From Propionibacteriaceae bacterium (GTDB lineage Bacteria; Actinomycetota; Actinomycetes; Propionibacteriales; Propionibacteriaceae), in contig JAISTC010000101.1 in assembly GCA_031272805.1 (NCBI GenBank), forward strand, positions 1 through 32,539: 32,539 nucleotides of DNA. Direction: 5' to 3'. A program made the translations under genes and the position numbers. A model generated the notes under the pieces. It ran no database searches. It was not told the DNA's origin and saw only the letters and a list, made by a program, of their open reading frames with translations. This document shows, one piece after another, positions 18,900-32,539 of this stretch. Each line of letters begins with the position of its first letter. The first letter of the stretch is position 1.

Positions 18900-18980
18900 G
18901 TGTGACATTGGGGACGGTTCCTTTTGTCACACCGAGTGTGACAAAAGGAACCGTCCCCAATGTCACACCCAATGTCACAC
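18900..18980. repeat. Perfect R/R' hairpin after the kinase gene
   Basis: R (18900-18932) and R' (18936-18968) are perfect 33-bp inverted repeats separated by only CGA. The outer terminus of R' is partly repeated (CCAATGTCACAC, 18969-18980). It starts 3 bp after the kinase stop and would form a very stable RNA hairpin. There is no U-tract, so read-through to the exporter may be reduced or the upstream mRNA protected, rather than classically terminated. Confidence 0.9.
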
Positions 18981-18998
18981 TTAAGGAACATTTAAGGA
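18981..18998 (+). promoter_or_regulatory. Candidate response-regulator binding site (TTAAGGA direct repeat)
   Basis: TTAAGGA occurs at 18981-18987 and again at 18992-18998, an 11-bp period, in an AT-rich island about 55-70 bp upstream of the ABC ATPase start. OmpR/PhoB-family regulators typically bind direct repeats one helical turn apart. The site lies between the two-component genes and the exporter, so it is a reasonable operator. I see no convincing -10/-35 pair nearby. Confidence 0.5.
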
Positions 18999-19051
18999 TC
19001 TTGTAGGCGACCGGTCGAGACCTGTTCAGGGAATCTGACGAGGCTTGAGCC

Positions 19052-19811
19052 ATGACCGCAACCATCATCGCCGCCACCAAGTTGACGAAGACCTTCTCGA
19101 CCGAGGGGCGTCAGCAGCATGTGCTCCGGAACATCGACCTGGAGCTTTACCAAGGTGACTTCACCGTCATCATGGGCGCCTCCGGCGCCGGCAAGTCCAC
19201 CCTCCTACGCCCTGTCGGGCATGGACCAGCCCTCCCTCGGCGACGTCAGGTTGGCCGGCCAGTCGATCACCGGCCGGTCCGAGTCCGACCTGGCCCGCTT
19301 CCGCCGCCGCCACGCCGGCTTCGTCTTCCAGCAGATCTACCTGCTCGACAACATGTCGCTGCTGGACAACGCGCTGGCCGCCGGCCGGCTGCTGACGACC
19401 GACCGCAAGGCCATCGCCGCCAAGGCCAACGGGCTGTTCGACCGCGTCAAGATCGGCCCCGACACCCGCCTCAAGTTCCCCGCCCAGGTCTCCGGCGGCG
19501 AGGCCCAGCGCGCCGGCATCGTCCGCGCGCTGATCAACGACCCCGTGGTCCTGTTCGCCGACGAGCCGACCGGCGCCCTCGACCAGAGTTCCGGCACGGC
19601 CGTCCTCGACGTGTTGACCGAGGTCAACCGGACCGGCCAGTCGATCGTCATGGTGACCCACGACCTCAAGTCGGCCCGCCGCGGCAACCGCGTCCTGTTC
19701 CTGCGCGACGGCCAAATCACGGGCGACCTCGCCCTGGCCCCCTACGAGTCGGACGCCGACCAAGCCCGCAACGACACCCTCCGTTCCTACCTCATCGAGA
19801 TGGGGTGGTGA
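19052..19811 (+). pseudogene. ABC exporter ATPase (MacB/LolD type), frameshifted after Walker A
   Basis: ATP-binding subunit of the exporter formed with the next gene. It starts at ATG19052 (LTKTFSTEGRQQHVLRNIDL) and reaches Walker A, MGASGAGKSTLL, in one frame. The remainder (YALSGMDQPSLGDVRLAG, Q-loop FVFQQIYLLDNMS, signature SGGEAQRAGIVRAL, Walker B VVLFADEPTGALD, switch VTHDLKSARRG) is in another frame from about 19206 to the stop at 19811. The join is CCACCCTCCTACGCC. An intact gene would probably read CTC-CTC-TAC, so two bases (a CT step) appear to be missing. The result is either a pseudogene, a sequencing error or recoding. The 1036-aa track ORF 19052-22162 arises because the wrong frame happens to stay open into the permease. 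Confidence 0.8.
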
Positions 19812-19813
19812 CG

Positions 19814-22162
19814 ATGACCCGCCTCGCCAAGATCGCCTGGGCCAATGTCCGCCGGCATCAGGGCCAGACCGCCAGCCTCCTCGCCATGATGCTGATCGCC
19901 GGCCTCGTCGCCAGCCTCGGCCTCCTCCTCATCCTCCGCTACGCCACCGAGTTCGACCGCCAGGCCGCCGCCCAGAACGCCCCCGACCTCAGCTTCGCCG
20001 AGCCCGACACGCTGTACGACGCCAGCCACGCCGCCAGCGCCCGCGCGCTCGGCGCCGCGACCGTCGAGACCGAGCCGGTCGTCCTCCTCTCGGGGGAGGT
20101 CGCCTTCAACGGCGCCGACGTGACCGCGACCGCGATGTACTCGTCCGTCACGACCGACGCCACGATGGACGTCCTGACGCTGCTCGACGGGGCCGAGCCC
20201 CTGACCGACACCAGCGTCTACGCCCCCCACCTGCTGGCCGACCTGGGCGGCTACCGGATCGGCGACCGGCTGACCGTGCGCGCCGCCGACGGCCCGGTCC
20301 TCGGCTACACCATCGCCGGCTTCTACAACGCCGTCTACTTCGTGTCCCCCACCAGCCAGTGGTACCACCTCTACCTGACTGCGGCGGCCTTCGCCGACCT
20401 GCAGGCCGAGCTGCCCGCAGATCAGTGGACGCTGCTCAACCTCCAGGTGGCCGACGGCGTCGACGCCAACCGGCTCTACCTCGACTACGTCAAGGCCAAC
20501 TGGGTCGACAATCCGCTCAACACCGGCGACATCGTGGCCTACTCCACCAGCCTGGACGCGGCCGTCGGCGGCCGGACCTTCATGGCCACGATCGTGGCGC
20601 TCATCATGGTCACGTTCGCCGCCCTCCTCGTCATCCTCGCCCTGTTCGTGGTCCGCTTCCGCGTGCGCACGGCCATCGAGGACTCGACCAAGGACATCGG
20701 CGCGCTCAAGGCGGTCGGCTACACGTCCGGCCAGGTGGCCGGCGCCCTCATCCTCCAGTACGTCGGCACGGCCTTCGCGGGCGCCGCCCTCGGCGTGGCC
20801 CTGTCCTATGCCGCCGTGCCCGCCGTGGCCGCCGTCCTCAAGCGCCAGTCCAGCATCGACTGGCGGCCCGGTTTCGACGCCGCCACGGCCCTCCCGACCG
20901 TCGTCGTCCTGACCGGCGCCATCCTCCTCGTGACGGCCGCCGCCGCCCGCCGCGTCCGCCGCCTCAGCCCGTTGGCGGCCCTGCGCTCCGGCCTCTCCGC
21001 CCACTCCTTCCGCCGCAACTGGTTCCCCCTGGACCGCTCGCGCGGCCCCCTCGCCTGGCTCCTCGCCGCCAAGCAGACCCTCCAGACCACGGGCCAGGCC
21101 GCCATGGTCGCCGCCATCACGGCCGTGGTCGCCTTCACGTCCGTCGCCCTGGTCTCGACCTACCACGTGACGGCCGTCGACACCGACCGCTTCGTCGGGC
21201 TGATCGCCGGCGAGCTGACCGACGCGCAGGTCACGGCCACACCCGAGGCCGCCGACGCCGTGTTGGCGGACCTCCAGACCCGGCCCGGCGTGCGCAAGGC
21301 CTTCCCCTACGTCGGCGGCCTGGCCATGACGCTCGACGGCGACTGGGCCCTGGCCACGGCGACCGCCGACTACGCCCAGCTCGAGGGCTCGGCCCTCTAC
21401 GACGGCCGCTACCCGGTCCACGCCAACGAGGTCGCCATCGGCGTCGTCACCGCCCGGACCGCCGGCCTCGGCATCGGCGACACGGTCACGCTGGCGGCCG
21501 GTGGCGCCGCCGCCGAGTACCTCGTGACGGGGCTGACCCAGGTCTACGGCGACGGCTCCGGCTACCACGTGGCGCTGACGCTCGACGGCCTCGGCCAACT
21601 GTTCCCCGGCTACCACTGGACGCTGATCGACGTCTACCTGGACGACTCCGCCGACGTCACGTCGTTCGCCGACGCCGTCACGGCCGAGTACGGCGACGCG
21701 GTCACGGTCACGGACACGCGGCGCGCGTGGCAGGCCACCCTCGGCATGTACGGCGACATCTTCGGCGCCGTCGCCGTGGCCATCCTCGCCATCACGGTCA
21801 CCGTCATCGGCCTCGTCCTCTACATGGTCCTCTCGACCACCATCCGGCGCCGCCAGCGGGCTTACGGCATCCAGAAGGCCGTCGGCTTCACGGGCGCCCA
21901 GCTCATGCGCCAGGTGACGCTGACGCTGCTCCCGGCCGTGGCCCTGGGCGTGGCCGCGGGTGCCGCCCTGGGCTACCTGGCCTTCCCCGCCCTGATGGAC
22001 GCCCTGTTCGCCAGCATGGGCCTGCCGTCCGCGGCCATGACCGCGTCCGCCCTGTTCACGGCCGGCGTCGCCGTCCTCCTGGTGGCCGCCGCCACGGCCA
22101 TCGCCTGCCTCGTGGCCCGCCGCATCCGCCGAGTCAGCGCCTACACCCTGGTCTCCGAATAG
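19814..22162 (+). CDS. ABC exporter permease, FtsX/MacB type, duplicated
   Basis: The product is about 782 aa. ATG19814 follows the ATPase stop (19811) by 2 bp, with GGGGTGG upstream; GTG19808 is an in-frame alternative. The layout is two FtsX-like halves. TM1 at about 20-41 is followed by an extracytoplasmic domain, then TM2-4 at about 255-382 with the coupling motif STKDIGALKAVGYT. TM5 at about 430-452 is followed by a second extracytoplasmic domain, then TM6-8 at about 646-768 with RRQRAYGIQKAVGFT. This 1+3+1+3 pattern fits MacB/FtsX-superfamily exporters rather than ten-TM BceB. Substrate is unknown; antimicrobial peptide or envelope lipid or lipoprotein handling are family possibilities. 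Control by the adjacent two-component system is inferred. It is convergent with the POT transporter, with an R/R' element between the stops. Confidence 0.92.
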   Translation: MTRLAKIAWANVRRHQGQTASLLAMMLIAGLVASLGLLLILRYATEFDRQAAAQNAPDLSFAEPDTLYDASHAASARALGAATVETEPVVLLSGEVAFNGADVTATAMYSSVTTDATMDVLTLLDGAEPLTDTSVYAPHLLADLGGYRIGDRLTVRAADGPVLGYTIAGFYNAVYFVSPTSQWYHLYLTAAAFADLQAELPADQWTLLNLQVADGVDANRLYLDYVKANWVDNPLNTGDIVAYSTSLDAAVGGRTFMATIVALIMVTFAALLVILALFVVRFRVRTAIEDSTKDIGALKAVGYTSGQVAGALILQYVGTAFAGAALGVALSYAAVPAVAAVLKRQSSIDWRPGFDAATALPTVVVLTGAILLVTAAAARRVRRLSPLAALRSGLSAHSFRRNWFPLDRSRGPLAWLLAAKQTLQTTGQAAMVAAITAVVAFTSVALVSTYHVTAVDTDRFVGLIAGELTDAQVTATPEAADAVLADLQTRPGVRKAFPYVGGLAMTLDGDWALATATADYAQLEGSALYDGRYPVHANEVAIGVVTARTAGLGIGDTVTLAAGGAAAEYLVTGLTQVYGDGSGYHVALTLDGLGQLFPGYHWTLIDVYLDDSADVTSFADAVTAEYGDAVTVTDTRRAWQATLGMYGDIFGAVAVAILAITVTVIGLVLYMVLSTTIRRRQRAYGIQKAVGFTGAQLMRQVTLTLLPAVALGVAAGAALGYLAFPALMDALFASMGLPSAAMTASALFTAGVAVLLVAAATAIACLVARRIRRVSAYTLVSE

Positions 22163-22199
22163 CCCGCCCCACCGTCACGCTCGGACCCACCGTGACACC

Positions 22200-22273
22200 G
22201 TGACATTGGGGACGGTTCCTCTTGTCACACCCCACCGAAAGTGTGACAAACGGAACCGTCCCCAATGTCACAC
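22200..22273. repeat. R/R' element between convergent genes
   Basis: R (22200-22230) and R' (22241-22273) are separated by 10 nt. The arms match except in the variable bases before GTCACAC (CTCTT against CGTTT). The element lies between two converging stop codons (22162 and 22290), the usual position of a bidirectional terminator, but again there is no T-tract. Confidence 0.9.
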
Positions 22274-22289
22274 TTCCCAGGGGGTGGCT

Positions 22290-23762
22290 CTAGAGGGCAC
22301 CCCGGCCCATGGTCACGAGGCGGCGGCGCGTCGCCAGCAGCGCCAGGCCGGCCAGCAGCGCCACGGCGCCGTAGGCCAGGAAGAAGTTGTGCGGCTGGGT
22401 GGGGTCGAAGGCGTGGACCGTGATGGCGTTGATGCCCTGGCCGAGCGCGTCGGCGATGAACCACAGGGCCATCATCTTCGACAGGTGGACGGTGGGCGAC
22501 AGTTGGCTCGTCACGGCCAGCCCGGTCGGCGCCAGCAACAGCTCCCCCAAGGTCATGAGGACCATCGCCGCGACGATCCACCAGGCGGAAACCTTCTCCT
22601 GGCCGGCCAGGTAGGGCAGGGACAGGACGACGAAGCCGAGGCAGGCCACGATCAGCCCGGCGCCGATCTTGGCCACGGGCGACGGCTGGCGGTGGCCCAA
22701 CCGGGTCCACAGCCCCGCCAACAGCGGGCTCAACACGATGATGACGAGCGGGTTGATCGACTGGTACCACGAGGCCGGGATCGTGAAGCCGCCGACGGCC
22801 GACGTGACGCTCTGGTCGATCAGGAGCGCCATCGTGGAGCCCTGTTGCTCGGAGATGGCGAAGAAGCAGGTCCCGGCCACGAACAGCGGCGCGTACGCGG
22901 CGATCCGCGAGCGCTCGTCGGACTCCAGCCGGACGTCACGCAGGAAGTAGGCGAACAGCGCCGCGGCGATGGCCACGCAGACGGCCGGCATCGCGTTCGC
23001 CACGACCTGCAGGCCCTCCTCGCCGTGGCGGGTGGCCGACACGAGGAGCGAGACCACGGCGACGAGCCCGACCCCGCCGATCGCCACCCAGCGCCGCCTC
23101 TCCGCCGGGTCCAGGGGCTGGGCCACGGCCCGGCCGACGCCCTTGAGCGTCTGCCGGCTGAGGCCGACGTAAATGGCCAGGCCGACCCCCATGAGGAGGG
23201 CCGGGACGAGGAAGCCGGCGTGGTAGCCCGACCGGTCCGAGACCCAGCCGACGATGATCGGCGAGAAGAAGCTGCCGATGTTGATCGACAGGTAGAGGAG
23301 CGAGAAGCCGGCCTGGCGGCGCGGGTCGCCGGCGGCGTAGAGCTGGCCGACCATGACCGACACGTTCGGCTTCAGCAGCCCCGTCCCGATGACGATCAGG
23401 TCGAGCGCCACGAGCGTGCCCGACAGGCCGAGGGGCAGGCCGAGGACGACGTGGCCCGCGGCGATCGTGACGCCGCCGATCAGGACGGCCCGGTACGGCC
23501 CCAGCAGGCGGTCGGCCAGCCAGCCCCCCACGATCGACGTCAGGTAGACGAGCGACCCGAACAGGCTCATGAGGACCATGGCGTCGGTCTCCGTCAGGCC
23601 CAACCCGCCGGCCGCGACCGAGTCGTACAGGTAGAAGACGAGGATCGCCTTCATGCCGTAGAACGAGAACCGCTCGCACAGCTCGGTCGAGAACAGGTTG
23701 AGCAGCCCGAGGGGATGCCCGAAGAACGTGCGAGGCTTGGCCTCGCCAACCACCACAGCCAC
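22290..23762 (-). CDS. POT/PTR-family proton-coupled oligopeptide transporter
   Basis: The product is about 490 aa. The track starts at 23843, but GTG23762 is preferred because AGGAAAGG lies six bases upstream and the removed N-terminus is not family-like. It is a major-facilitator-type inner-membrane symporter for di- and tripeptides. The POT signature (ExxERFxFYG: TELCERFSFYGMKAILVFYLY) is near the N-terminus. DRLLGPYRAVLIGG matches the A-loop, and LLKPNVSVMVGQLY plus SINIGSFFSPIIVGW match the PTR2 region. QQGSTMALLIDQSV and SINPLVIIVLSPLLAGLW follow, then further membrane helices to the C-terminus. Length and motifs agree with DtpT/YjdL-type transporters. It is a single gene with hairpin repeats at both ends. 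Confidence 0.93.
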   Translation of the reverse strand: MAVVVGEAKPRTFFGHPLGLLNLFSTELCERFSFYGMKAILVFYLYDSVAAGGLGLTETDAMVLMSLFGSLVYLTSIVGGWLADRLLGPYRAVLIGGVTIAAGHVVLGLPLGLSGTLVALDLIVIGTGLLKPNVSVMVGQLYAAGDPRRQAGFSLLYLSINIGSFFSPIIVGWVSDRSGYHAGFLVPALLMGVGLAIYVGLSRQTLKGVGRAVAQPLDPAERRRWVAIGGVGLVAVVSLLVSATRHGEEGLQVVANAMPAVCVAIAAALFAYFLRDVRLESDERSRIAAYAPLFVAGTCFFAISEQQGSTMALLIDQSVTSAVGGFTIPASWYQSINPLVIIVLSPLLAGLWTRLGHRQPSPVAKIGAGLIVACLGFVVLSLPYLAGQEKVSAWWIVAAMVLMTLGELLLAPTGLAVTSQLSPTVHLSKMMALWFIADALGQGINAITVHAFDPTQPHNFFLAYGAVALLAGLALLATRRRLVTMGRGAL

Positions 23763-23846
23763 AGCGACCCTTTCCTGTCGCGGAGGCTGGGGGTCATCGT
23801 AGACACACTGCGACGCCAGGTCTACCGGCGCGAGGCCGGGCACTCA

Positions 23847-23960
23847 GGCCATGGGGTCGGGCACGCTGGCTACGGGGTCGGGCACGCCGGCCATGGGGTC
23901 GGGCACGCTGGCTACGGAGCGAGGACCGAGCGACAGCCAGCGGGCCTGACACCGGGGCCG
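23847..23960 (-). repeat. Family-2 hairpin repeat, inverted, GCTGGCT/AGCCAGC variant
   Basis: A complete copy in reverse orientation runs about 23889-23960, preceded by a partial tandem copy (23847-23888, GGCCATGGGGTCGGGCACGC twice). The inner stem is GCTGGCT/AGCCAGC where other copies have TGTGGCT/AGCCACA, so two pairs have changed together. Only repeats are visible in 23763-24042, the space upstream of the POT transporter. Confidence 0.8.
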
Positions 23961-23967
23961 GCCCACC

Positions 23968-23996
23968 GTGACATTGGGGACGGTTCCTTCGTCACG
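23968..23996 (+). repeat. Single R arm upstream of TauE/SafE gene
   Basis: GTGACATTGGGGACGGTTCC is followed by TTCGTCACG, with the inner terminus GTCACGC instead of GTCACAC. The next arm downstream is R' at 24766, which also has GTCACGC, so the two could be seen as bracketing the TauE/SafE gene. Alternatively it is an orphan arm. Confidence 0.85.
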
Positions 23997-24042
23997 CTGA
24001 ACGCCGGGCCGGTGGGTCACGCCGGCGCGCTACTGTGGGCAC

Positions 24043-24765
24043 GTGGGACTCGGGGCGGTGGCGTGGGCGGTCATGGCGGTGGCCGCCGTGGTCATGGGCT
24101 TCTCCAAGACGGCGATCGGCAACGTCGCGCTCCTCGGCGTCGTCGCCCTGGCCCAGGTCCTGCCGGCCAAGGACTCGACCGGCGTCGCGCTCCTGCTGCT
24201 CTTGGTCGGCGATGCCGTCGCCACCGTGACCTACCGGAAATCCGCCGACTGGCCTGTCATCGGCCGGCTCATCCTGCCCGTCGCCGTCGGCCTCGGCCTC
24301 GGCGCCGTCTTTCTCCACGTGACGTCGGACTCGGTCCTCAAGAAGACCATCGGCGCCATCATCCTCGCCCTGCTGCTCCTCGGGCTGCGGCCGGACAAGC
24401 TCGGCGTCCAGCGCCCGGCCGTGGCCGCGGGCTACGGCGGCCTGGCCGGCTTCACGACGATGGTGGCGAACGCCGGTGGCCCGGCCATGAGCCTCTACCT
24501 GCTGGCGGCCCGGTTCGACAAACTCCGCTTCCTCGGCACGTCGGCCTGGTTCTTCGCCGCGGTCAACGTGACGAAGCTGCCGATCTCCATCGGCCTCGGC
24601 CTCGTCCGGCCCGACACGGCCCTCATCGCCCTCCCGCTCGCCCCCGCCGTGCTCCTCGGCACGGCCATCGGCCGCCGCGTCGTCCAGCGCCTCGACCAGA
24701 AGACTTTCACCGCGCTGATCATGATCTTCGTGGCGATCTCGGCGCTGTACCTGATCGCCAGCTAG
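24043..24765 (+). CDS. TauE/SafE-family membrane permease
   Basis: The product is 240 aa with GTG start 24043. The family exports or takes up small anions such as sulfite, sulfoacetate or related organosulfur compounds; the substrate here is unknown. The two-fold repeat of the family is visible: VMGFSKTAIGNVALLGVVAL near the N-terminus and GGLAGFTTMVANAGGPAMSL at about residue 130. GTSAWFFAAVNVTKLPISIGLG and the C-terminal LDQKTFTALIMIFVAISALYL follow. About seven to eight hydrophobic helices are visible, matching a typical length of about 250 aa. The stop TAG is immediately followed by an R' arm with no gap, and an R arm lies 46 bp before the start. No metabolic partner gene is adjacent. Confidence 0.9.
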   Translation: MGLGAVAWAVMAVAAVVMGFSKTAIGNVALLGVVALAQVLPAKDSTGVALLLLLVGDAVATVTYRKSADWPVIGRLILPVAVGLGLGAVFLHVTSDSVLKKTIGAIILALLLLGLRPDKLGVQRPAVAAGYGGLAGFTTMVANAGGPAMSLYLLAARFDKLRFLGTSAWFFAAVNVTKLPISIGLGLVRPDTALIALPLAPAVLLGTAIGRRVVQRLDQKTFTALIMIFVAISALYLIAS

Positions 24766-24843
24766 GCGTGACAAAGGAACCGTCCCCAATGTCACACACG
24801 GGCGTCACGCGGTGTGACATTGGGGACGGTTCCTTTGTCACGC
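24766..24843. repeat. R'/R inverted pair (reverse order) at the transposase 3' end
   Basis: R' (24766-24797) and R (24812-24843) are identical 32-bp inverted copies around a 14-nt loop that contains GGCGTCACGCG, also found in the loops of the ordinary pairs. The order is R' then R, opposite to most pairs. R' abuts the TauE/SafE stop codon, and the transposase stop codon (24838-24840) lies inside R. Confidence 0.9.
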
Positions 24844-25687
24844 TGGGGCCGAGTCGGCCGACTCGGGCGTGACGCTGCGCCAGACCACGCCGCGGTTCAG
24901 GCCGGTCAGCCGCGCCAACTGGCGCACGGACGCGCCACGCTGGAACGCCTCCGCCAGCGCCGCCTGCTGCAGCGGCCGGCCGAGAGCCTGGAAAGCCGTC
25001 GCCTGGCCGGCGCCGCTGACAGCCGCCAGGACGCTCCAGGCCTGCTCGTCAGAGGGCCGACGGCCCTGCACGGCCGACGGGGGGCGGGCGGCGGCCTCGT
25101 CGACCTCTCCCCGCAACTCGGCCCAGTCGGCCACGCCGGTCAACTCCTTGACGCGCCGCGCGTCCACGACGCGGTCGGGGCCCGCCGCGCTGCTCCACTC
25201 GTACTCGGCCGGGGTCGCGCACAGGCCGGCCTCGACCGGATTGCCGTGGACGTAGCGGATCACGTTGATGAGATCCTCGGTCTCCACCACCGGCCGGCTC
25301 TTGAACCGGTCTTGCCACAGGTGGCCGACCCGGTCGTACTTGTGGTTGAACCACCACACGTACCGCGCGCCCAACCGGCGGAAGAACTGGCCGACCGGCT
25401 CCCGCGTGACCTCAACCACCAGGTGGACGTGGTTCGACATCAGGCAGTACGCCAGCACGCGGACGCCGCTCAGGTCCGCCGCCGCCACGGCGCAGTCGAG
25501 GAACCGCCGCCGATCGGCGTCATCCTCGAAAATGTTCTGCCGGTTGATGCCGCGCAGGAACGCGTGATGCACGCCGACCTCGCCGTGAATCCGCTGGCTT
25601 CGTGACATGGGAGGCCCCTCCGTTCGTTGAGGACCAACTCAATTCCACCAGCAAGTGTGACAGAAAGAACCGTCCCCCATGTCACGC
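24812..25687 (-). mobile_element. RAYT unit bounded by R and R' arms
   Basis: The Y1 transposase gene is bracketed by R (24812-24843) on its 3' side and R' (25655-25687) on its 5' side, giving an interval of about 876 bp with the same R...R' polarity as the small elements. Further arms lie directly outside at 24766-24797 and 25713-25744. RAYT genes in other bacteria are characteristically flanked by the REP sequences they are thought to mobilise. Whether this interval moves as a unit is inference. Confidence 0.7.
24838..25608 (-). CDS. REP-associated tyrosine transposase (RAYT, Y1/IS200-like)
   Basis: The product is 256 aa with start ATG25608. It is a single-strand DNA transposase of the HUH/Y1 superfamily. 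The metal-binding HUH motif is CLMSNHVHLVVE (His60, His62), and the catalytic tyrosine is most likely Tyr119 in INVIRYVHGNPVEAGL, the typical RAYT YxxxNP arrangement. Other family landmarks are HAFLRGINRQNIFEDDADR near the N-terminus and GHLWQDRFKSRPV. The C-terminal 80 residues carry a helix-turn-helix (ASVRQLARLTGLNRGVVW), probably for recognising the repeat. No catalytic residue appears lost, so it may be active. R/R' arms flank it, and its own stop codon lies inside an R arm. It is the only transposase in the window and the obvious candidate to have spread the R elements. Confidence 0.93.
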   Translation of the reverse strand: MSRSQRIHGEVGVHHAFLRGINRQNIFEDDADRRRFLDCAVAAADLSGVRVLAYCLMSNHVHLVVEVTREPVGQFFRRLGARYVWWFNHKYDRVGHLWQDRFKSRPVVETEDLINVIRYVHGNPVEAGLCATPAEYEWSSAAGPDRVVDARRVKELTGVADWAELRGEVDEAAARPPSAVQGRRPSDEQAWSVLAAVSGAGQATAFQALGRPLQQAALAEAFQRGASVRQLARLTGLNRGVVWRSVTPESADSAPA

Positions 25688-25744
25688 CGTCACATGTCAC
25701 GCCGTCACGCCCGTGTGACATTGGGGACGGTTCCTGTGTCACAC
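25655..25744. repeat. R'/R inverted pair (reverse order) upstream of RAYT
   Basis: R' (25655-25687) and R (25713-25744) are separated by about 25 nt made of degenerate copies of the CATGTCACGC terminus. As on the other side of the transposase, the order is R' then R. Together with the family-2 copy and the next R' they fill the roughly 300-bp non-coding space 25609-25914 between RAYT and the sigma factor. Confidence 0.85.
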
Positions 25745-25747
25745 CTA

Positions 25748-25815
25748 GCCATGGGGTCGGGCGCCGTGGCTACGGAGCGAGGAACGAGCGATTCCACGGG
25801 GCCTGACACCGTGGC
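25748..25815 (-). repeat. Family-2 hairpin repeat nested between R and R'
   Basis: A reverse-orientation family-2 copy has the stem CCGTGG/CCACGG but has lost the two innermost pairs. It starts 4 nt after an R arm and ends about 25 nt before an R' arm (25840), so it occupies the position that a short loop has in the ordinary R/R' elements. Confidence 0.75.
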
Positions 25816-25839
25816 GCCCCGCCAGAACACCCCGCCAGA

Positions 25840-25871
25840 GTGTGACAAAGGAACCGTCCCCAATGTCACAC
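25840..25871 (-). repeat. R' arm upstream of the ECF sigma gene
   Basis: GTGTGACAAAGGAACCGTCC then CCAATGTCACAC, a complete R' arm 43 bp upstream of the sigma-factor start. It pairs in polarity with the R at 25713 across the nested family-2 copy. The 43-bp gap would have to hold the sigma promoter unless transcription starts within the repeat. Confidence 0.85.
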
Positions 25872-25914
25872 ACAGGCCGGCGACATTTCGCGGGTTGTCG
25901 TCGTTTACTGAAGT

Positions 25915-26445
25915 ATGGAGACCGTGACCGAGAGCGCTGCCGCCGAGCTCTATCGGCGCCACGTCGGCGCGGTCTACCGCCTCTGCTACGCCTGGCTGAA
26001 GCACCGGCCGGACACCGAAGACGCCGTCCAGGAGACCTTCGTCCGGCTGATCCGCTCGGGGCCTCAGTTCGAGTCGGAGGCGCACGCCGAGGGCTGGTTG
26101 ATCCGGACCGCCGGCAACATCTGCAAGGACATGGCCAAGCGGACCTCGCGGCGGCGTGAAACGACGCTGGCAGAGGATCAGGTAGGTCTGGGTGCGGTCA
26201 GCGCGGCAGGCGAGTTGCCTGGGTCGCCGCCCAGCCTGTCGGTCGCGCTCAACCCAACCCTGGCCGCCGTCCTGGCGCTACCCGACCACTACAAGGCGGT
26301 CGTCTACCTCTATTACTACGCCGGCTACAGCACGGCCGAGATCGCCGAGCGGCTGCGATTGAGGCCCTCAACTGTCCGCAATCGGCTGGCCGATGCGCGC
26401 GCCCGGCTGCGTCGGGCCTTAGGAGACGAGTTCGATGAGGAATAG
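25915..26445 (+). CDS. ECF-type RNA polymerase sigma factor
   Basis: The product is 176 aa with start ATG25915. Region 2 (about residues 8-75) includes ELYRRHVGAVYRLCYAWL and the core-binding/-10 segment DTEDAVQETFVRLIR, followed by AEGWLIRTAGNICKDMAKR. A loop of about 40 residues leads to region 4 (about 118-170): LALPDHYKAVVYLYYYAGYS, then the helix-turn-helix TAEIAERLRLRPSTVRNRLADARARL, which reads the -35 element. It lacks extra C-terminal domains. There is no strong Shine-Dalgarno sequence; TTTACT five bases before the ATG could be a -10 for a leaderless mRNA, which is weak evidence. Its last 11 bases overlap the start of the next gene (ATGAGGAATAG), so the pair is coupled, as expected for a sigma/anti-sigma operon. 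Confidence 0.95.
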   Translation: METVTESAAAELYRRHVGAVYRLCYAWLKHRPDTEDAVQETFVRLIRSGPQFESEAHAEGWLIRTAGNICKDMAKRTSRRRETTLAEDQVGLGAVSAAGELPGSPPSLSVALNPTLAAVLALPDHYKAVVYLYYYAGYSTAEIAERLRLRPSTVRNRLADARARLRRALGDEFDEE

Positions 26446-27292
26446 CCAAATCATGGCGGCCTGGGACGAGGTCACGCCCGACCTGACAACCAGGGACCGG
26501 CTGTGGGGCGCGATCGTGGCGGCGACCGACAGCGTGACCGCCGCCAGTCCAGCTCAGCCCATTCACCCGGCTGAGCACGCCCGCCCGACTCGTCGCCGTA
26601 CCCGTCGGCGCTGGCTCTGGGCGCTGGCCCCGGTCGGCGCCGTCCTGTTGGCCGCCGCCCTGGTCATCCCCCGGTGGGCCGACTGGGGCCGCGCGGTGTC
26701 CTTGACCGACTCGCACGGCGTCCGCGTCGCCTACACCGACCCGCCATCCGGCAGCTTGGCCGCCGACCTGGTCCCGATGACCGAGGCGGAACTGCTGGAC
26801 GGCGCGGACATCTTCGCAGGCACGGTCGTCGGCATCCAGGGCATCAAGGTCACGTTTTCCGACTACGACACCGCGATGAGCCTGCTGACCGTCCGTGTCA
26901 GCGAAGTTGTCAGCGAAGCTGTCAGCGGCGAATTGAGTCCGGGCGACGACGTGACCATCCTGGTCTCCCCGGCGGTCGGCCTGACCTGCTCGATTTGCCA
27001 GGTCAGCGGTCAACTAGCGGTTGGTGCGGCCGCCGTCTTTGTGGCCCACCCGGCGGCCGAGGGCTGGGCCGCCGCACTCGACGGGTCGGAGGTCTTCTAC
27101 TACTCCGATGTGGCCGGCTACTACCTACCCGACCCGGTGCGCTACGTCTTCCTGGACACCGACGCCGGCGTCGCCTTCGCGACCAGCGGCTGGCCCAGCC
27201 TGGCGCCCCTGAGCACCCCCCTCGACAACAACCTCTCCCTGGCCCCCAACCTGGCCACCGTGGTCGCCTTCCTGCGTACAGCCGCCGGTTAG
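26435..27292 (+). CDS. Membrane protein, probable anti-sigma partner of the ECF factor
   Basis: The product is 285 aa. It overlaps the sigma stop by 11 bp. About 60 N-terminal cytoplasmic residues (WDEVTPDLTTRDRLWGAIVA) are followed by an arginine-rich stretch (RRRTRRR) and one membrane segment (WLWALAPVGAVLLAAALVI). An extracytoplasmic domain of about 200 residues completes it. The zinc-binding HxxxCxxC motif of ZAS anti-sigma factors is absent, so the anti-sigma role rests on topology and operon position. The external domain contains one CxxC pair (LTCSICQ, near residue 185) and a small internal duplication, VSEVVSEAVSGEL. No homologue is recognised for the outer domain. An R/R' element begins 3 bp after the stop. 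Confidence 0.7.
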   Translation: MRNSQIMAAWDEVTPDLTTRDRLWGAIVAATDSVTAASPAQPIHPAEHARPTRRRTRRRWLWALAPVGAVLLAAALVIPRWADWGRAVSLTDSHGVRVAYTDPPSGSLAADLVPMTEAELLDGADIFAGTVVGIQGIKVTFSDYDTAMSLLTVRVSEVVSEAVSGELSPGDDVTILVSPAVGLTCSICQVSGQLAVGAAAVFVAHPAAEGWAAALDGSEVFYYSDVAGYYLPDPVRYVFLDTDAGVAFATSGWPSLAPLSTPLDNNLSLAPNLATVVAFLRTAAG

Positions 27293-27295
27293 GAC

Positions 27296-27404
27296 GTGTG
27301 ACATTGGGGACGGTTCCTCTGTCACGCTGTTGCGGCGCATCCGAGCCCACCCGACGTCACGCGGCGTCAAAGTGTGACAAAAGGAACCGTCCCCAATGTC
27401 ACAC
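27296..27404. repeat. R/R' element (REPIN-like), type I loop
   Basis: R (27296-27327) and R' (27372-27404) flank a 44-nt loop containing GCGGCGCATCCGAGCCCACC and CGTCACGCGGCGTCAAA. The element at 31984-32091 has nearly the same loop, so these two are copies of one 109-bp unit and not independent arms. It starts 3 bp after the anti-sigma gene. Confidence 0.92.
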
Positions 27405-27436
27405 ACGCGTGACCGATACAGATCTCTCCAACAGAC

Positions 27437-27474
27437 TTGACAAGCGCTATCTAGATAGAGTATCTATCTAGATA
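27437..27474 (+). promoter_or_regulatory. padR promoter with overlapping tandem-palindrome operator
   Basis: TTGACA (27437-27442) and TATCTA (27461-27466) are spaced 18 bp, a good sigma-70 promoter, and predict transcription starting at about the ATG (27474), so the mRNA is probably leaderless. The palindrome 27448-27474 has perfect 12-bp arms (TATCTAGATAGA/TCTATCTAGATA) around GTA and contains TATCTAGATA twice. It covers the -10 and the start codon and is strikingly AT-rich here. It is a likely PadR autorepression site. Confidence 0.75.
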
Positions 27475-27881
27475 TGAAGTCAGACACCGCATGGCCGAGC
27501 GAATGGCTCCGAGGCGTGACGGAACTCTGCGTCCTGAAGATCATGAGCGCCGGGCCGACCTACGGCTACGCCATCGCGTCCGCCCTGGGCGACGCCGGGC
27601 TCGGCACTCCCAAGGGCGGGACCCTCTACCCCCTCCTCGGCCGGTTCGAGGAGGCCGGCTGGGTGACGACCGAGTGGCGCGCCGGCGACGGCGGCCCCGG
27701 CCGCAAGTTCTACTCCCTCACCTCCGCCGGCCGCGCCGCCCTGGACGAGCAGCTTCCCCAATGGCAGGCGTTCACGGCGGCCGTCGGTTCCCTGCTGAGC
27801 CCCGTCACCCCGGTCGCCCCGTCGACTCCGGCCGCCCTGACCACCCCAACCACCCCCCACCCCGAAAGGGCACTCTCATGA
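27474..27881 (+). CDS. PadR-family transcriptional regulator
   Basis: The product is 135 aa with start ATG27474. The winged helix (about residues 12-90) shows the PadR pattern LRGVTELCVLKIMSAGPTYGYAIASAL, then PKGGTLYPLLGRFEEAGWV and the wing GPGRKFYSLTSAGRAAL. The usual C-terminal dimerisation helix follows (LDEQLPQWQAFTAAVGSLL). A low-complexity tail (TPVAPSTPAALTTPTTPHPE) may be unstructured. No Shine-Dalgarno sequence precedes the ATG; the promoter geometry predicts a leaderless transcript. The stop overlaps the next start (ATGA). Pairing with a HAAS-type membrane protein is a recurring arrangement in which PadR represses the operon. The ligand or signal is unknown. Confidence 0.93.
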   Translation: MKSDTAWPSEWLRGVTELCVLKIMSAGPTYGYAIASALGDAGLGTPKGGTLYPLLGRFEEAGWVTTEWRAGDGGPGRKFYSLTSAGRAALDEQLPQWQAFTAAVGSLLSPVTPVAPSTPAALTTPTTPHPERALS

Positions 27882-28639
27882 CCGAGAAGTACAGCCTCGA
27901 ACGCGAACTCGCGCCCCACGTCGACCCCCACTGGGCCGAGTGGTTCCTCGTCACCCTGCGCCTCCAGGAGGTCCCCGGCGACCGCATCGGCGCCGCCCTG
28001 GCCGAGGTCGAGGCCCACGTGGCCGAGTCCGGCGAAACCGCCGAAGAGGCGTTCGGCGAACCCGTCGCCTACGCGCGCAGCCTCCGCCTCAAGGCCGACC
28101 CCATCGGCACCAAGGGCCAACTCCTGCGCAACCTGCTCGTCGTGCCGTCGCTCCTCGGCCTGGACCTGGTCGTGGAGTCGGTTCAGGGGCTGTCGGATGA
28201 GGTCTTCCCCGTTCGGACGGGCCTCCTCGTCACGCTCGGCCTCTACTGCCTCATCCTCGTCACGCTGGCCGCCGCCAGCAGGGCGTTGGTCGCATCGCTG
28301 GTGCGCCGCCGGGGCGCGGCGGTCGCCGTCTACGTCGCGGCCGTGGCCCTGCTAGTCGTCCCCGTCGTGCTGTGGCGCGGGACGGCGTTCACGCTCCCGG
28401 CGTGGCCGGCGCTGTTGGCCGGCGTCGTCCTGCTCGTCGCCATGATCCCCGTCAACTACCGCCTGATGGCCGGGAACGCCGACCCGGTCACGCCGCCGCT
28501 GCCCTCCCCGGACGACCCGGACGGGTCGGTGGCAGCCGCTCGCGCCGCCCGGTCCAACCGCCGCACCGCTTGGGCGTTCGCGCTGATGTTCCCCGTCGTG
28601 ACGGCCGTCCTGGCCGGCCTGTGGCTCCTGCTGGGCTGA
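27878..28639 (+). CDS. HAAS-domain membrane protein co-transcribed with padR
   Basis: The product is 253 aa. ATG27878 overlaps the padR stop (ATGA) and has GAAAGGG upstream; the longer track ORF from 27491 is a shadow in the padR frame. Residues about 1-70 (LRLQEVPGDRIGAALAEVEA, ESGETAEEAFGEPVAYARSL) resemble the HAAS/DUF1700 helical domain commonly paired with PadR regulators. Three or four membrane helices follow (GLLVTLGLYCLILVTLAAAS, VAVYVAAVALLVVPVVL, ALLAGVVLLVAMIPV, AFALMFPVVTAVLAGLWLLL). A linker, PLPSPDDPDGS, precedes the last helix. The exact role is unknown; in this gene arrangement the protein is thought to sense or transmit a membrane signal. Confidence 0.8.
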   Translation: MTEKYSLERELAPHVDPHWAEWFLVTLRLQEVPGDRIGAALAEVEAHVAESGETAEEAFGEPVAYARSLRLKADPIGTKGQLLRNLLVVPSLLGLDLVVESVQGLSDEVFPVRTGLLVTLGLYCLILVTLAAASRALVASLVRRRGAAVAVYVAAVALLVVPVVLWRGTAFTLPAWPALLAGVVLLVAMIPVNYRLMAGNADPVTPPLPSPDDPDGSVAAARAARSNRRTAWAFALMFPVVTAVLAGLWLLLG

Positions 28640-28664
28640 GCCGCGACCGACGGACGGAGGGCGG

Positions 28665-28774
28665 GTGTGACATTGGGGACGGTTCCGTTTGTCACACCGC
28701 GGGGGCGCAGTCGAGCCCAGCGAACGTCACGCGGTGTCAGAGTGTGACAGAAGGAACCGTCCCCAATGTCACAC
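28665..28774. repeat. R/R' element (REPIN-like), type II loop
   Basis: R (28665-28697) and R' (28742-28774) surround a 44-nt loop with GGGGGCGCAGTCGAGCCCAG and CGTCACGCGGTGTCAGA. The half element at 29647 has the same type II loop. The element begins 25 bp after the HAAS gene. Confidence 0.92.
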
Positions 28775-28888
28775 GATCCGGAGAACTTCGAGATCGTGTT
28801 GGGTGGTGGAAGGCTGGAATTGGATCGCCGCCAGGTAATGCGTTTTGCCCAGCGAATGGCGTCGCGCGCATCGCCTTGCGCCGGTTAG
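28766..28888 (+). other. Possible 40-codon ORF starting inside an R' arm
   Basis: ATG28766 within the R' terminus (AATGTCACAC) opens a 40-codon frame, MSHDPENFEIVLGGGRLELD through MASRASPCAG, ending at TAG28886-28888. AAGGA of the same arm lies 10 nt upstream. The peptide has a natural-looking composition and may be the remnant of a gene interrupted by the repeat. It could equally be chance. It is not in the ORF track. Confidence 0.2.
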
Positions 28889-28907
28889 ACTCCTTGCTGT
28901 GGGCACG

Positions 28908-29165
28908 ATGTATGCAACGGTGACCGGCAAAGGTCAGATCACCCTGCCGGCGCCGGTTCGCCGGGCGCTGGGGATTGAGGCAGGCCAGCGGATCGAGGTG
29001 CGTCTGGAGGAACGGCGGGCCGTCATTGAGGCGCCGGCCCCAGTCGCGCATCTGCGGCAGGCGCTCGAGCGCGAAGCCCGTGAGCGGGGAACCTGGGGCA
29101 AGGCATACTCATCCGGAGACGGGTGGGCGGCTCGGGTGCGCGAGGCCGGCGATGCCGAGTCTTGA
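28908..29165 (+). CDS. AbrB/MazE-type antitoxin (VapB-like)
   Basis: The product is 85 aa with start ATG28908. GTG28899, two codons longer on the same frame, is possible, since TAGACT at 28886-28891 would be a -10 for a leaderless message there. The N-terminal swapped-hairpin DNA-binding fold is clear: MYATVTGKGQITLPAPVRRALG then IEAGQRIEVRLEERRAVIEA. The C-terminal part (AHLRQALEREARERGTWGKA) is the expected toxin-binding tail. It overlaps the downstream PIN gene by 14 bp, the standard antitoxin-first arrangement. It should bind and neutralise the toxin and repress the operon, although I see no clear palindromic operator. Confidence 0.9.
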   Translation: MYATVTGKGQITLPAPVRRALGIEAGQRIEVRLEERRAVIEAPAPVAHLRQALEREARERGTWGKAYSSGDGWAARVREAGDAES

Positions 29166-29541
29166 CACGAACGGCGTGCTCCGCTGGCTCATGGGCGACG
29201 TGCCGGACCAGGCTGCCGCAGTAGACGCGGCACTGGCCACTGGAACCAAGTTCCATCTGGACGACATCGTCTTGGTCGAAGTGGTCTACGCGCTGGAACA
29301 CCACTACCTGCTGTCCCGGCCAACTACTGCCGCGTCGTTGCAGACGGTCATGGGCCAGGCCGGGTTCCTCCTCGACCGGCCACTGTGGAGCGAAGTCTTG
29401 CCGGTCTACATTGCGAAGCCGAAGCTGTCGCTGGTCGACATCCTGACCGTCGAACGCGCCCGCCGCACCGGTCGAACCCCCGTGGCGATATTCGACCGCA
29501 AGATGGCCAGCCAGCTCAAGGACGTGGAACTGCTGTCGTAG
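29152..29541 (+). CDS. PIN-domain ribonuclease toxin (VapC-like)
   Basis: The product is 129 aa with start ATG29152 inside the antitoxin gene; the track ORF from 28975 is extended upstream artificially. PIN nucleases cut RNA with Mg2+ held by conserved acidic residues. Candidates here are Asp5 (SLDTNGVLRWLM), Glu43 (DDIVLVEVVYAL), Asp96 (KLSLVDILTVERAR) and Asp115 (VAIFDRKM). All four positions are filled, so it looks functional. Length matches VapC toxins. Together with the AbrB-type protein it forms a type II toxin-antitoxin module. The specific RNA target cannot be predicted. Confidence 0.9.
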   Translation: MPSLDTNGVLRWLMGDVPDQAAAVDAALATGTKFHLDDIVLVEVVYALEHHYLLSRPTTAASLQTVMGQAGFLLDRPLWSEVLPVYIAKPKLSLVDILTVERARRTGRTPVAIFDRKMASQLKDVELLS

Positions 29542-29646
29542 TGACGGCGCCGCCGCGCGGTCAGGTGGTGTGGTTTTCAGTTGGGCCCCCGTAGGAAGGG
29601 CACGGGCTCCGGGTGTCGTCGGTCAGGCCAGTTCCGATCGCGCGCA

Positions 29647-29718
29647 TGTGACATTGGGGACGGTTCCGTTTGTCACACCGCGGGGGCACAGTTGAGCCCA
29701 GTGAACGTCACGCGGTGT
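29647..29718 (+). repeat. Half REPIN-like element: R plus type II loop, R' lost
   Basis: R (29647-29678) is followed by the type II loop (CGGGGGCACAGTTGAGCCCA to CGTCACGCGGTGT), which then breaks off where R' should begin (GCAACTCGTCACGCG). The loop proves it was once a full element like 28665-28774. It lies between vapC and the 3' end of the B3/B4 gene. Confidence 0.85.
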
Positions 29719-29745
29719 GCAACTCGTCACGCGTTCGCCGCTGGG

Positions 29746-30471
29746 TCACGCTGTCACCAGCCGTCTGGACACCTGTACGTTCTCCCCCAAGCTCGTCAGC
29801 ACGCTGGCGAGGGCGTCACCGGCGGCGTGCAACTCGTCATCGGTGACGGGGGCGAGCGCGTCGAACACGAAGAACGCGGTCCGGGTTTGATCGGTCAGGC
29901 CGGTGCGCCGGCACTGCCGCCAGTTCCACCGCCGACACGTCACCCCGGTCCCGTCGCACCAGACGACCTCGCCGGGTTCGGGGTACTCGACTGCCACCTC
30001 GCCGTGCGCGGTCGTGTCGAACGGCTCCATGCCCGTGGCGCGAATCAGACGCGCCGGACCGTCGTAGCGTTCGTAGTCCTCCCCGCCGAGGGGAATCTGG
30101 CGCAACACCGAGATTGCGTTGTAGGCGTCGGTCAGCGCGTTCACCCGCGGCAGGCCGGTCTCGGCGCGGCGGGTGAGGGCTTCGAGGCTGTTGCGGGTGC
30201 GCTGCGGCTTCGCCCCGAACGCCCGGTACGCCTCCCGCCACGACGCGACATGGGGCAGCTCGTCCACGGACGTGACGGCCAGCAGGTCGTGGGCGTGGGC
30301 CTCGGCCGCCGACACGAGCCCGTCGACCGTGCTGTTGCCCTCGCCGGTCACGCCCGGAGCGAGGCCGTCGATGACGAGCAGCAGGGCACGGTAGTCCGGG
30401 CGCAACTCGAATACGGCCGGCTCGACCTGGCAAGCCGCCAAGAACGCCTCGGGAGTCATGGTTTCAGGCAT
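29746..30471 (-). CDS. B3/B4 (tRNA-binding-like) domain protein
   Basis: The product is 241 aa with start ATG30471 preceded by GGAGAGGAG. It matches the stand-alone B3/B4-domain family, the domain found in the beta subunit of phenylalanyl-tRNA synthetase. Landmarks are PHVASWREAYRAFGAKPQRTRN, SLEALTRRAETGLPRVNALTDAYNAIS, LPLGGED-like QIPLGGEDYERYDGP and EVVWCDGTGVTCRRWNWRQC. The domain fills about residues 65-225. Members are suspected of editing mischarged tRNA or acting on amino-acid derivatives, but the function of stand-alone forms is not settled. It stands alone, with R/R' elements on both sides. Confidence 0.88.
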   Translation of the reverse strand: MPETMTPEAFLAACQVEPAVFELRPDYRALLLVIDGLAPGVTGEGNSTVDGLVSAAEAHAHDLLAVTSVDELPHVASWREAYRAFGAKPQRTRNSLEALTRRAETGLPRVNALTDAYNAISVLRQIPLGGEDYERYDGPARLIRATGMEPFDTTAHGEVAVEYPEPGEVVWCDGTGVTCRRWNWRQCRRTGLTDQTRTAFFVFDALAPVTDDELHAAGDALASVLTSLGENVQVSRRLVTA

Positions 30472-30514
30472 TCAGAGTCTCCTCTCCGCAGTCGGCTCTC
30501 GCCCCCTGGCCGGC

Positions 30515-30619
30515 GTGACATTGCGTGACATTGGGGACGGTTCCGTTTGTCACACCGCCCCGCATTCACGCCCAGAGCGGTGTCAGAGTGTGACAGAGGG
30601 AACCGTCCCCACTGTCACA
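30515..30619. repeat. R/R' element with terminal duplication
   Basis: R (30525-30555) and R' (30588-30619) enclose a short 32-nt loop ending in GCGGTGTCAGA. An extra GTGACATTG (30515-30523) sits just outside R. R' contains the stop codon (30615-30617) of the small minus-strand ORF. Confidence 0.88.
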
Positions 30620-30839
30620 AGACCAGCGCAACCACGGTCGCCGCCGCGCGTCGCCGCCTCTTGGGTTTCGCCGCGCCGGTCCCGGGGTCGGGCGCGTCCC
30701 AGGCCGGCGCGGCCTCCACCGCGCCGTCCTTGGGCTCATACGGCAGATACGGCGCCGCCACCGGCATCTGTGCCGGGGTCACGCTCTCCGCCGCCGCCGT
30801 CACGCGCAGTCCGCCCGGTTGCTCTTCTACCTCGGCCAT
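30615..30839 (-). CDS. Small hypothetical protein, probably truncated by a repeat
   Basis: The product is 74 aa with start ATG30839 preceded by GAAGGAGCC at reasonable spacing, so translation is plausible. No family is recognised. The sequence is acidic to proline-rich (MAEVEEQPGGLRVTAAAES, PYLPYEPKDG), then a basic patch (AAKPKRRRR), then hydrophobic AAATVVALVL, where it stops. The stop codon is supplied by the R' arm of an adjacent repeat. A basic patch followed by the first ten residues of a membrane helix suggests that the original protein continued as a membrane protein and was cut short by the repeat. If not truncated, it is a short cytoplasmic or membrane-associated peptide of unknown role. 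Confidence 0.5.
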   Translation of the reverse strand: MAEVEEQPGGLRVTAAAESVTPAQMPVAAPYLPYEPKDGAVEAAPAWDAPDPGTGAAKPKRRRRAAATVVALVL

Positions 30840-30891
30840 GGGCTTGGCTCCTTCACGCCGCCGGTTGTCGTGGAGGCCAGTCTACGCTGGC

Positions 30892-31020
30892 GTGACATTG
30901 GCGTGGCGTGACATTGGGGACGGGTCCGGTTGTCACACCAGTCCGCTGGGCAGGTCCGGTGCCACCCCGCCGTCACGCGGTGTCAGAGTGTGACAAAAGG
31001 AACCGTCCCCAATGTCACAC
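30892..31020. repeat. R/R' element with diverged R arm and terminal duplication
   Basis: R (30908-30938, with GGGTCCGGTT in place of GGTTCC) and R' (30988-31020) enclose a loop of about 49 nt ending in CGTCACGCGGTGTCAGA. A partial extra terminus, GTGACATTG, lies at 30892-30900. It separates the 5' side of the small ORF from the 3' end of the hydrolase. Confidence 0.88.
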
Positions 31021-31059
31021 GACCCGGCGCGCCCGCTACGACCAGTTCTTGGCCCACGC

Positions 31060-31962
31060 CTAGGCGGCGGCGATGGCGGCCTGGTAGAAGGCGTCGACCC
31101 GCTCCCAGAACGCCTCGTCGATGAAGTTAGCGTGGCCGTTGTAGGGCGGCTGGTCATAGATCAGGAACTCGGCCCGCGGGTTCGTCACCTGGTCACGTCG
31201 GCCGGCGATCGACACCTCGGCGAACGGTGTCATCGGGTCGTCCGTCCCCTGCGCCACGAGGACCGGCCCGTCGAAGGCGTTGATCGCGTCGATGGCGTTG
31301 ACAGCGCCGTAGCGGCCAAGACTCAGCTTGGCGTCGAGCCAGACATACGGCCGGGAGACCGCCGCCAGGACCGGGCCGGCGGACTGGCGCCAGTTGTAGT
31401 CGAGCTTGGCCAGCGGCGAGTACGCCCCGGCGACGGACACGACCGCCGTGACATCGGTCCGGCCGAGCGTGGCGCCGACCACGCCGCCACCGCCATAACT
31501 GACCCCCCACAGGAGCCGGGGAAGGCCCGCCGCCTCGGGCTGTGCCGCCAGCCAGTCGAGCGCCGCCGCCACGTCGACCGCCGACCGTGCCGGATGGCCG
31601 GTGTGGCGCCCGTCGGACGTGCAGCAGCCCATACCGTTGGCGAACAGGATCTGGTAACCCCGGCTCAAGAACTCGCGCGCCAGCGAGGCGTCGAAACAAC
31701 CCGGCATGCCGTGGGCGATCACGACCACGCCGGTCGCGTCCGCCGGACCCCCAAACCAGCCCCGCAACGTCGTACCGTCGGACTGGAACTCGATCTCGCG
31801 CAGGTCGTAGCCGGTGTACGTCGTGCTCTGGACCTCGACGTGACTGAACGGCCGGGTCAGGTAGTGGGCCACGGGCAGAGGCGCCAAGACGAGGGCCACG
31901 ACCACCACGCCGAGAACGATCAGGCGCCGCCGCCGGACGGGCTTCGCTGTCCGAGCTACCAC
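31060..31962 (-). CDS. Membrane-anchored alpha/beta hydrolase
   Basis: The product is 300 aa with GTG start 31962. A basic N-terminus and one hydrophobic segment (RRRRLIVLGVVVVALVLAPLP) indicate an uncleaved membrane anchor or signal peptide with the enzyme outside the cytoplasm. The fold is seen in the oxyanion region VVVIAHGMPGC, nucleophile elbow WGVSYGGGG (Ser155), acid VAQGTDDPMTP (Asp241 or Asp242) and base YNGHANF (His277), so the triad is complete. Two adjacent cysteines (GMGCCTSDG) lie near residue 113. The substrate is unknown; esterase or dipeptidyl-peptidase-like are family possibilities. TAGGCT six bases upstream of the GTG and no Shine-Dalgarno sequence suggest a leaderless message. 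An R/R' element fills the divergent promoter space. Confidence 0.88.
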   Translation of the reverse strand: MVARTAKPVRRRRLIVLGVVVVALVLAPLPVAHYLTRPFSHVEVQSTTYTGYDLREIEFQSDGTTLRGWFGGPADATGVVVIAHGMPGCFDASLAREFLSRGYQILFANGMGCCTSDGRHTGHPARSAVDVAAALDWLAAQPEAAGLPRLLWGVSYGGGGVVGATLGRTDVTAVVSVAGAYSPLAKLDYNWRQSAGPVLAAVSRPYVWLDAKLSLGRYGAVNAIDAINAFDGPVLVAQGTDDPMTPFAEVSIAGRRDQVTNPRAEFLIYDQPPYNGHANFIDEAFWERVDAFYQAAIAAA

Positions 31963-31983
31963 GCCAGCAGCCTATTGGACACC

Positions 31984-32091
31984 GTGACACTGGGGACGGT
32001 TCCTTTTGTCACACTGTTACGGCGCATTCGAGCCCGCCCGACGTCACGCGGTGTCAAAGTGTGACAAAAGGAACCGTCCCCAATGTCACAC
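31984..32091. repeat. R/R' element (REPIN-like), type I loop, in a divergent promoter region
   Basis: R (31984-32014, with CACTGGGG instead of CATTGGGG) and R' (32059-32091) enclose a 44-nt loop nearly identical to that at 27296. It occupies 108 of the roughly 168 bp between two divergent start codons, leaving little room for promoters. Confidence 0.92.
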
Positions 32092-32129: not shown

Positions 32130-32539
32130 GTGATCCGCAGGGTGTGCGTCGTGGGGAATGCGGCCAGCGGGAAGAGCTGCCTGGCCGACCGGATCGGCCT
32201 GGCGCTGGGTGTGCCCGTGCATCATCTGGACCGGGTGTACTGGCGGGCCGACTGGACGCATGTCAGCCGGGCCGAGTTCCTCGCCGCGCAGAAGGCTCTC
32301 GTCAGCGGTGAGGCGTGGGTAATCGACGGGTGTTTCTCGGAATACGGCCTGCGGGAACGGTTCGCCGCCGCCGACCTGGTGGTGTTCCTGGACGTGCCCG
32401 CGCTGGCCTGTGTGCGCCGGGCCGTGGCGCGGCGGGGCGGCTCTCATGTCGGCCTGCCGGACGGGGCCGACGATTCCCGGATGGCTCTGGGGCGCACGGT
32501 GGCGTTTCTCGCGGAGATGCTGCTGTTCCCTGTGCTGGA
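32130..32539 (+). CDS. P-loop kinase-like protein (partial, runs off the window)
   Basis: About 136 codons are visible with no stop; it is not in the ORF track. GTG32130 is preferred over ATG32121 because GGGAGG lies directly against the ATG but nine bases before this GTG. Walker A is at the N-terminus (VCVVGNAASGKSCLADRIG), followed by LGVPVHHLDRVYWRADW, WVIDGCFSEYGLRERFAAAD and VVFLDVPALACVRRAVARR. This is the pattern of adenylate-kinase-like 'topology modulation' (FlaR-type) P-loop proteins, nucleotide-binding proteins of uncertain function. The lid and C-terminal part lie outside the window. Confidence 0.8.
   Translation, partial: MIRRVCVVGNAASGKSCLADRIGLALGVPVHHLDRVYWRADWTHVSRAEFLAAQKALVSGEAWVIDGCFSEYGLRERFAAADLVVFLDVPALACVRRAVARRGGSHVGLPDGADDSRMALGRTVAFLAEMLLFPVL

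Follow-up and report, generated by a model that had tools for sequence, protein, structure and literature searches.

Genes and repeats in the window

The window, meaning the whole stretch of 32,539 nt analysed here, contains a RAYT gene next to a tauE/safE-type transporter gene, both set among copies of a 33-base imperfect hairpin, GTGTGACATTGGGGACGGTTCCTTTTGTCACAC, termed R, and its reverse complement, R' (Table 1). R and R' arms begin at approximately 18900, 18936, 22199, 22241, 23968, 24766, 24812, 25655, 25713 and 25840 in the first part of the window and at approximately 27296, 27371, 28665, 28741, 29647, 30523, 30587, 30906, 30987, 31982 and 32058 in its later part. Their order is R, R', R, R' from 18900 to 32091 with one R' missing after 29647, exactly as the first-pass annotation had described it. 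Elsewhere in the window, an ABC transporter ATPase gene (19052-19811) shows an apparent frameshift just past the Walker A motif, with the ATG at 19052 in one frame and the remaining domain in the frame of an ORF at 19119-19811, which reflects either a mutation or an assembly error. The window's final 119 bases (32421-32539) and the opening 119 of contig JAISSX010000003.1 (L205:1-354) are the same sequence; that contig is filed under a Bifidobacteriaceae MAG (Md513_bin114) and has another 44-nt-loop doublet at 245-354. Its title contains k119, the same number as the length of the overlap in bases, so this contig is probably the next one of the window's genome, binned elsewhere.

Table 1. Positions of the genes and repeats discussed in the text
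Feature	Position	Strand	Remark
Family-2 repeat copy	23838..23963	.	Just outside arm R(23968); blastn copies across genome
R arm	23968..23997	+	Solo, left of tauE
tauE/safE-type transporter gene	24043..24765	+	Pfam TauE, E 6.8e-28; interpreted as a bystander
R' arm	24766..24797	-	Starts straight after tauE stop codon; same sequence as arm 24812
R arm	24812..24843	+	Left terminal inverted repeat of RAYT unit; overlaps RAYT stop codon
RAYT gene	24838..25608	-	Y1_Tnp, 256 aa; HUH H60/H62, Tyr Y119
R' arm	25655..25687	-	Right terminal inverted repeat of RAYT unit
R arm	25713..25745	+	Arm of R-family 2-R' composite doublet
Family-2 repeat copy	25746..25838	.	In loop of R-R' doublet
R' arm	25840..25871	-	Arm of R-family 2-R' composite doublet
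R-R' doublet	27296..27404	.	44-nt loop
Related R-R' doublets	28665-28774, 30906-31020, 31982-32091
Solo R	29647
Shorter R-R' doublet	30523-30619

The genome of the window was searched at 2.96 Mb in 239 contigs, 88.8% complete. With up to 1 mismatch allowed, it contained 170 R cores against 2 matches to a reversed control pattern, far over chance. We placed 159 of the 170 arms and read them in context, leaving 11 unplaced; the neighbours of some arms were lost at contig ends. Among the arms read, 55/159 were solo, and 26 R-R' doublets had arms no more than 160 nt apart. Arm pairs within 150 nt outside the window comprised 20 R-R, 9 R'-R' and 18 R-R', and no R'-R pair was present. Cut-down outer ends (GACATTG) were not enriched just outside full arms (19/159, against 15 just inside). 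R was found in none of the relatives searched (0/57) and in none of the other genomes of the phylum sample (0/396). The exact 19-mer TGACATTGGGGACGGTTCC occurred in MAGs labelled Bacteroidales, Ruminococcaceae, Syntrophomonas, Olsenella and others (L196-L213), several of them from gut samples, so that the repeat core was found across phyla.

A naive shuffle gave a probability of 0.0002 for the alternation of arms in the window. Since an inverted arm pair reads R-R' on both strands, short doublets in a row are bound to alternate; with the 8 doublets of the window held fixed and the other 7 arms taken in all combinations of orientation, alternation this good had P = 0.22. Outside the window, neighbouring arms alternated in 31/84 cases, and direct R-R and R'-R' neighbours combined outnumbered R-R' neighbours. 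The alternation in the window is a by-product of short R-R' doublets, unremarkable once these are fixed, and it therefore provides no evidence for cargo; as a genome-wide rule, strict alternation was not borne out.

The RAYT gene and its probable repeat

The RAYT matches PF01797 at E 1.1e-11, and H60, H62 and Y119 were invariant across 10 aligned RAYTs. The genome carries 4 Y1_Tnp genes, and R arms adjoin only the one in the window. At 9 homologous RAYT loci from the same genus and family (33-46% identity; L214, L215, L216, L217, L218, L219, L081, L083 and L085), inward-facing GGGGAC(A/G)G was present on both sides of the gene, supporting the proposal of the first-pass annotation that R(24812)-RAYT-R'(25655) forms a unit. 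A 10th homologue, on contig C29 of the window's genome, is accompanied by palindromic GGGGACAGTCCCC repeats (motif GGGGACAG) whose orientation is not assignable. On C30, inverted copies of family 2 lie on either side of the RAYT (L082:1373-1447 and 2356-2430, G000:C30), so that family 2 likely has an enzyme of its own, and the RAYT on C191 is bracketed by a third repeat, of the AGTACCGGTACC type, also inverted. Because these two RAYTs have their own repeats and the 9 homologues carry the inward-facing core, this comparison of sequences makes it most likely that R pairs with the window's RAYT. In G014, a genome of the same genus in which the exact R core is absent, a sister repeat, GACAATTGGGGACGGTACTTTTTGTCAC, brackets RAYTs (L083, L085 and L086).

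We consider it very probable that R/R' is the terminal-inverted-repeat family of this RAYT, forming a TIRtron/REPtron with REPIN-like doublets, and that tauE is a bystander. R(24812)-RAYT-R'(25655) would then be the TIRtron/REPtron itself, a single-copy Y1/HUH-type tyrosine transposase between inward-facing copies of the repeat that it recognises, and the scattered short R-R' doublets would be its REPIN-like substrates, cut and rejoined in trans as single-stranded hairpins. The outcome would be the approximately 170 arms seen as doublets, tandem arrays and solo arms, and hairpins of other families would often have entered the loops of doublets or had loops built around them. Direct observation covers the number and orientation of the arms, the conserved arrangement of RAYT and repeats and the catalytic residues; that the RAYT recognises, cleaves and spreads R is suggested by analogy with related enzymes described in the literature. 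The 18 same-genus genomes contain no syntenic relative, and each unit is at most a putative insertion. Two features of the locus argue against this explanation, namely the outward-facing arms 24766 and 25713, which are unmatched in the homologues, and the inward orientation of R(23968) and R'(24766) around tauE.

Alternative readings of the arms

Arms 24766 (R') and 25713 (R) point away from the RAYT, which permits a reading in which the gene is bracketed by two reverse-order (R'-R) hairpin doublets, 24766/24812 and 25655/25713, and R(23968) and R'(25840) are left as orphans. Arms 24766 and 24812 are identical over the full arm and fold into a strong hairpin (-46.6 kcal/mol, z -12.8), so that one probably arose from the other locally, and tail-to-tail REP dimers are known from other species (PMC3733652). 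However, the 136 arms read elsewhere in the genome included no R'-R pair within 400 nt, all 9 homologous RAYT units have inward-facing flanking repeats and none has outward arms like these, and 25713/25840 forms a regular R-family 2-R' composite, with similar ones at C123 and C127. We consider this reading unlikely; 24766 and 24812 are probably recent relatives, copied locally. The first-pass annotation had correctly noted that the two arms around tauE share the rare inner end GTCACGC (10/153 arms with a readable inner end), but the feature is not specific to that pair, being common to the three consecutive arms 23968, 24766 and 24812. It gives no preference to the tauE pair because the full variant of 24766 matches that of 24812, not 23968; this variant is carried by 4 arms in the genome, the other two being C152:993 and C223:12287.

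The ordinary 44-nt-loop elements had been suggested to be internally deleted derivatives of a longer R-cargo-R' unit. The inner ends of 27296, 28665 and 31982 match one another, that of 30906 partly, and also match arm C61:15540; they have no sequence in common with the inner ends of the RAYT or tauE intervals, leaving the suggestion unsupported. These doublets are a local subfamily adjoining the RAYT, and an earlier report describes repeats accumulating near a rayt gene (PMC2817692). In a narrower version, the short doublets would be internally deleted remains of R-RAYT-R', as MITEs are of a parent transposon. Doublets and RAYT unit share the inward topology, and at the solo arm C152:993 the match to the RAYT-side inner flank extends about 18 nt past the arm (prefix score 10.4, 99% null 7.6). 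Yet this match is one-sided, the second arm being absent, the 44-nt loops resemble the RAYT unit at neither of its inner ends, and 0 doublet loops scored above the 99% null, which makes a deletion origin very unlikely.

R(25713)-family 2-R'(25840), also put forward as a cargo unit, proved to be a real and recurring structure, with similar composites at C123:2352-2605 and C127:12313-12642, but it consists of two nested repeat families and holds no gene cargo. Hairpins of other families occupied the loops of 19/71 close arm pairs, including TGTCATCCTGAGCGCAGCG... and TGTCATCCCGGCG..., which resemble CGTC-type REPs, as well as family 2 and a third family. Such composite doublets were found in G000 at C19:6701, C76:1436, C153:27548, C222:15678, C222:17256, C43:19966 and other sites; several have identical junctions, and the composites may have spread as units. 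A more general version, in which R/R' are general ends and the RAYT in trans moves whatever lies within an inward-facing pair, mostly hairpins of other families, appears highly improbable to us. If it were true, the content moved would include CGTC-type repeats, which have no known transposase, and occasionally a whole gene such as tauE.

For tauE itself, the cargo reading holds that the RAYT in trans brought the gene between two R ends. R(23968) and R'(24766) face inward with the rare inner end on both, and the closest tauE homologues belong to another genus, g9 (up to 69% identity, against no more than 54% within the same genus). Against this, tauE is single-copy, so that no second locus with tauE and arms was found, and its GC3 of 0.967 equals that of the adjoining POT gene, a native base composition. 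Homologues were present in 75/199 genomes of the family (E<=1e-45), and the R core was missing from 16/17 neighbourhoods of the closest ones (54-69% identity); none of the window's flanking genes lay near these 17 homologues, bar one distant response-regulator paralogue in L235. Gene-sized gaps (400-4000 nt) between neighbouring arms were of the R...R' type in 3/31 cases genome-wide, namely tauE, RAYT and 1/22 outside the window, so the R-gene-R' intervals sought across the genome show no excess. A solo pair taken at random faces inward 1/4 of the time, and because one in three arms is solo, a stray R on one side of a gene and a stray R' on the other call for no particular explanation. The POT-sigma neighbourhood of the window was shared by 0/18 same-genus genomes and thus gave no syntenic empty site; the POT gene has a counterpart of 77% identity in G017 and the sigma/anti-sigma genes of 44-59% in G008, G004 and G011, and these and tauE lie at different places. 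The R-tauE-R' unit of the first-pass annotation is accordingly not supported, and we regard it as very unlikely. Instead, tauE appears to be a normal gene with a solo R arm on its left and an R' arm on its right. Its closest homologues lie in another genus, and it may have been acquired horizontally, with no sign of the arms having served as the vehicle.

Relation to known systems

Our preferred reading, a RAYT with its own terminal inverted repeats and REPIN-like doublets, falls close to units published as REPtrons, or as TIRtrons where the repeat carries no GTAG tag (PMC2817692, PMC3733652, PMC6006769). TIRtron/TIRYT (Di Nocera et al. 2013, PMC3733652) probably corresponds to subclass 2.1 of Quentin et al. 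2018 (PMC6006769). Shared with it are a Y1/HUH tyrosine transposase within terminal inverted repeats, a GGGGAC core, repeats that also occur singly, as dimers and clustered across the genome, and a repeat that overlaps the 3' end of the gene. In contrast, the R core, GGGGACGG, has one mismatch to the published GGGGWSAS (PMC3733652), and the C-terminal helix-turn-helix of subclass 2.1 is only weakly detected in the window's RAYT (HTH_23, E 0.1), while 4/10 homologues match it (best 6.1e-5). The main text of the TIRtron papers (PMC3733652, PMC6006769) does not name Actinobacteria, and a search of the published literature for the core sequence found no related report.

Like REPtrons and REPINs (Nunvar et al. 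2010, PMC2817692; Bertels and Rainey 2011, PMC3116915), the locus has a RAYT with an inverted repeat on each side and a build-up of repeats near that gene, and the dispersed copies are commonly inverted doublets alongside solo arms; in contrast to them, the R arm consensus has a GTAG tag at neither end. The protein also departs from classical RAYTs, with 65.7 bits against the NCBIfam model for REP-associated tyrosine transposases, below the cut-off of 80. As in composite transposons and IS-mediated cargo, inverted copies of a mobile repeat stand on both sides of a gene, but tauE has no second copy, an empty site was not found and the gaps show no excess.

Here, one repeat family is probably paired with one RAYT, and the high-GC genome around them has 4 RAYTs in all. 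At least 2 of the others have their own inverted repeats, so a single cell would allow comparison of how different RAYTs recognise repeats. In addition, the doublets that enclose hairpins of other families, some resembling the CGTC type that is said to have no transposase, offer a testable idea for how CGTC-type repeats may spread.
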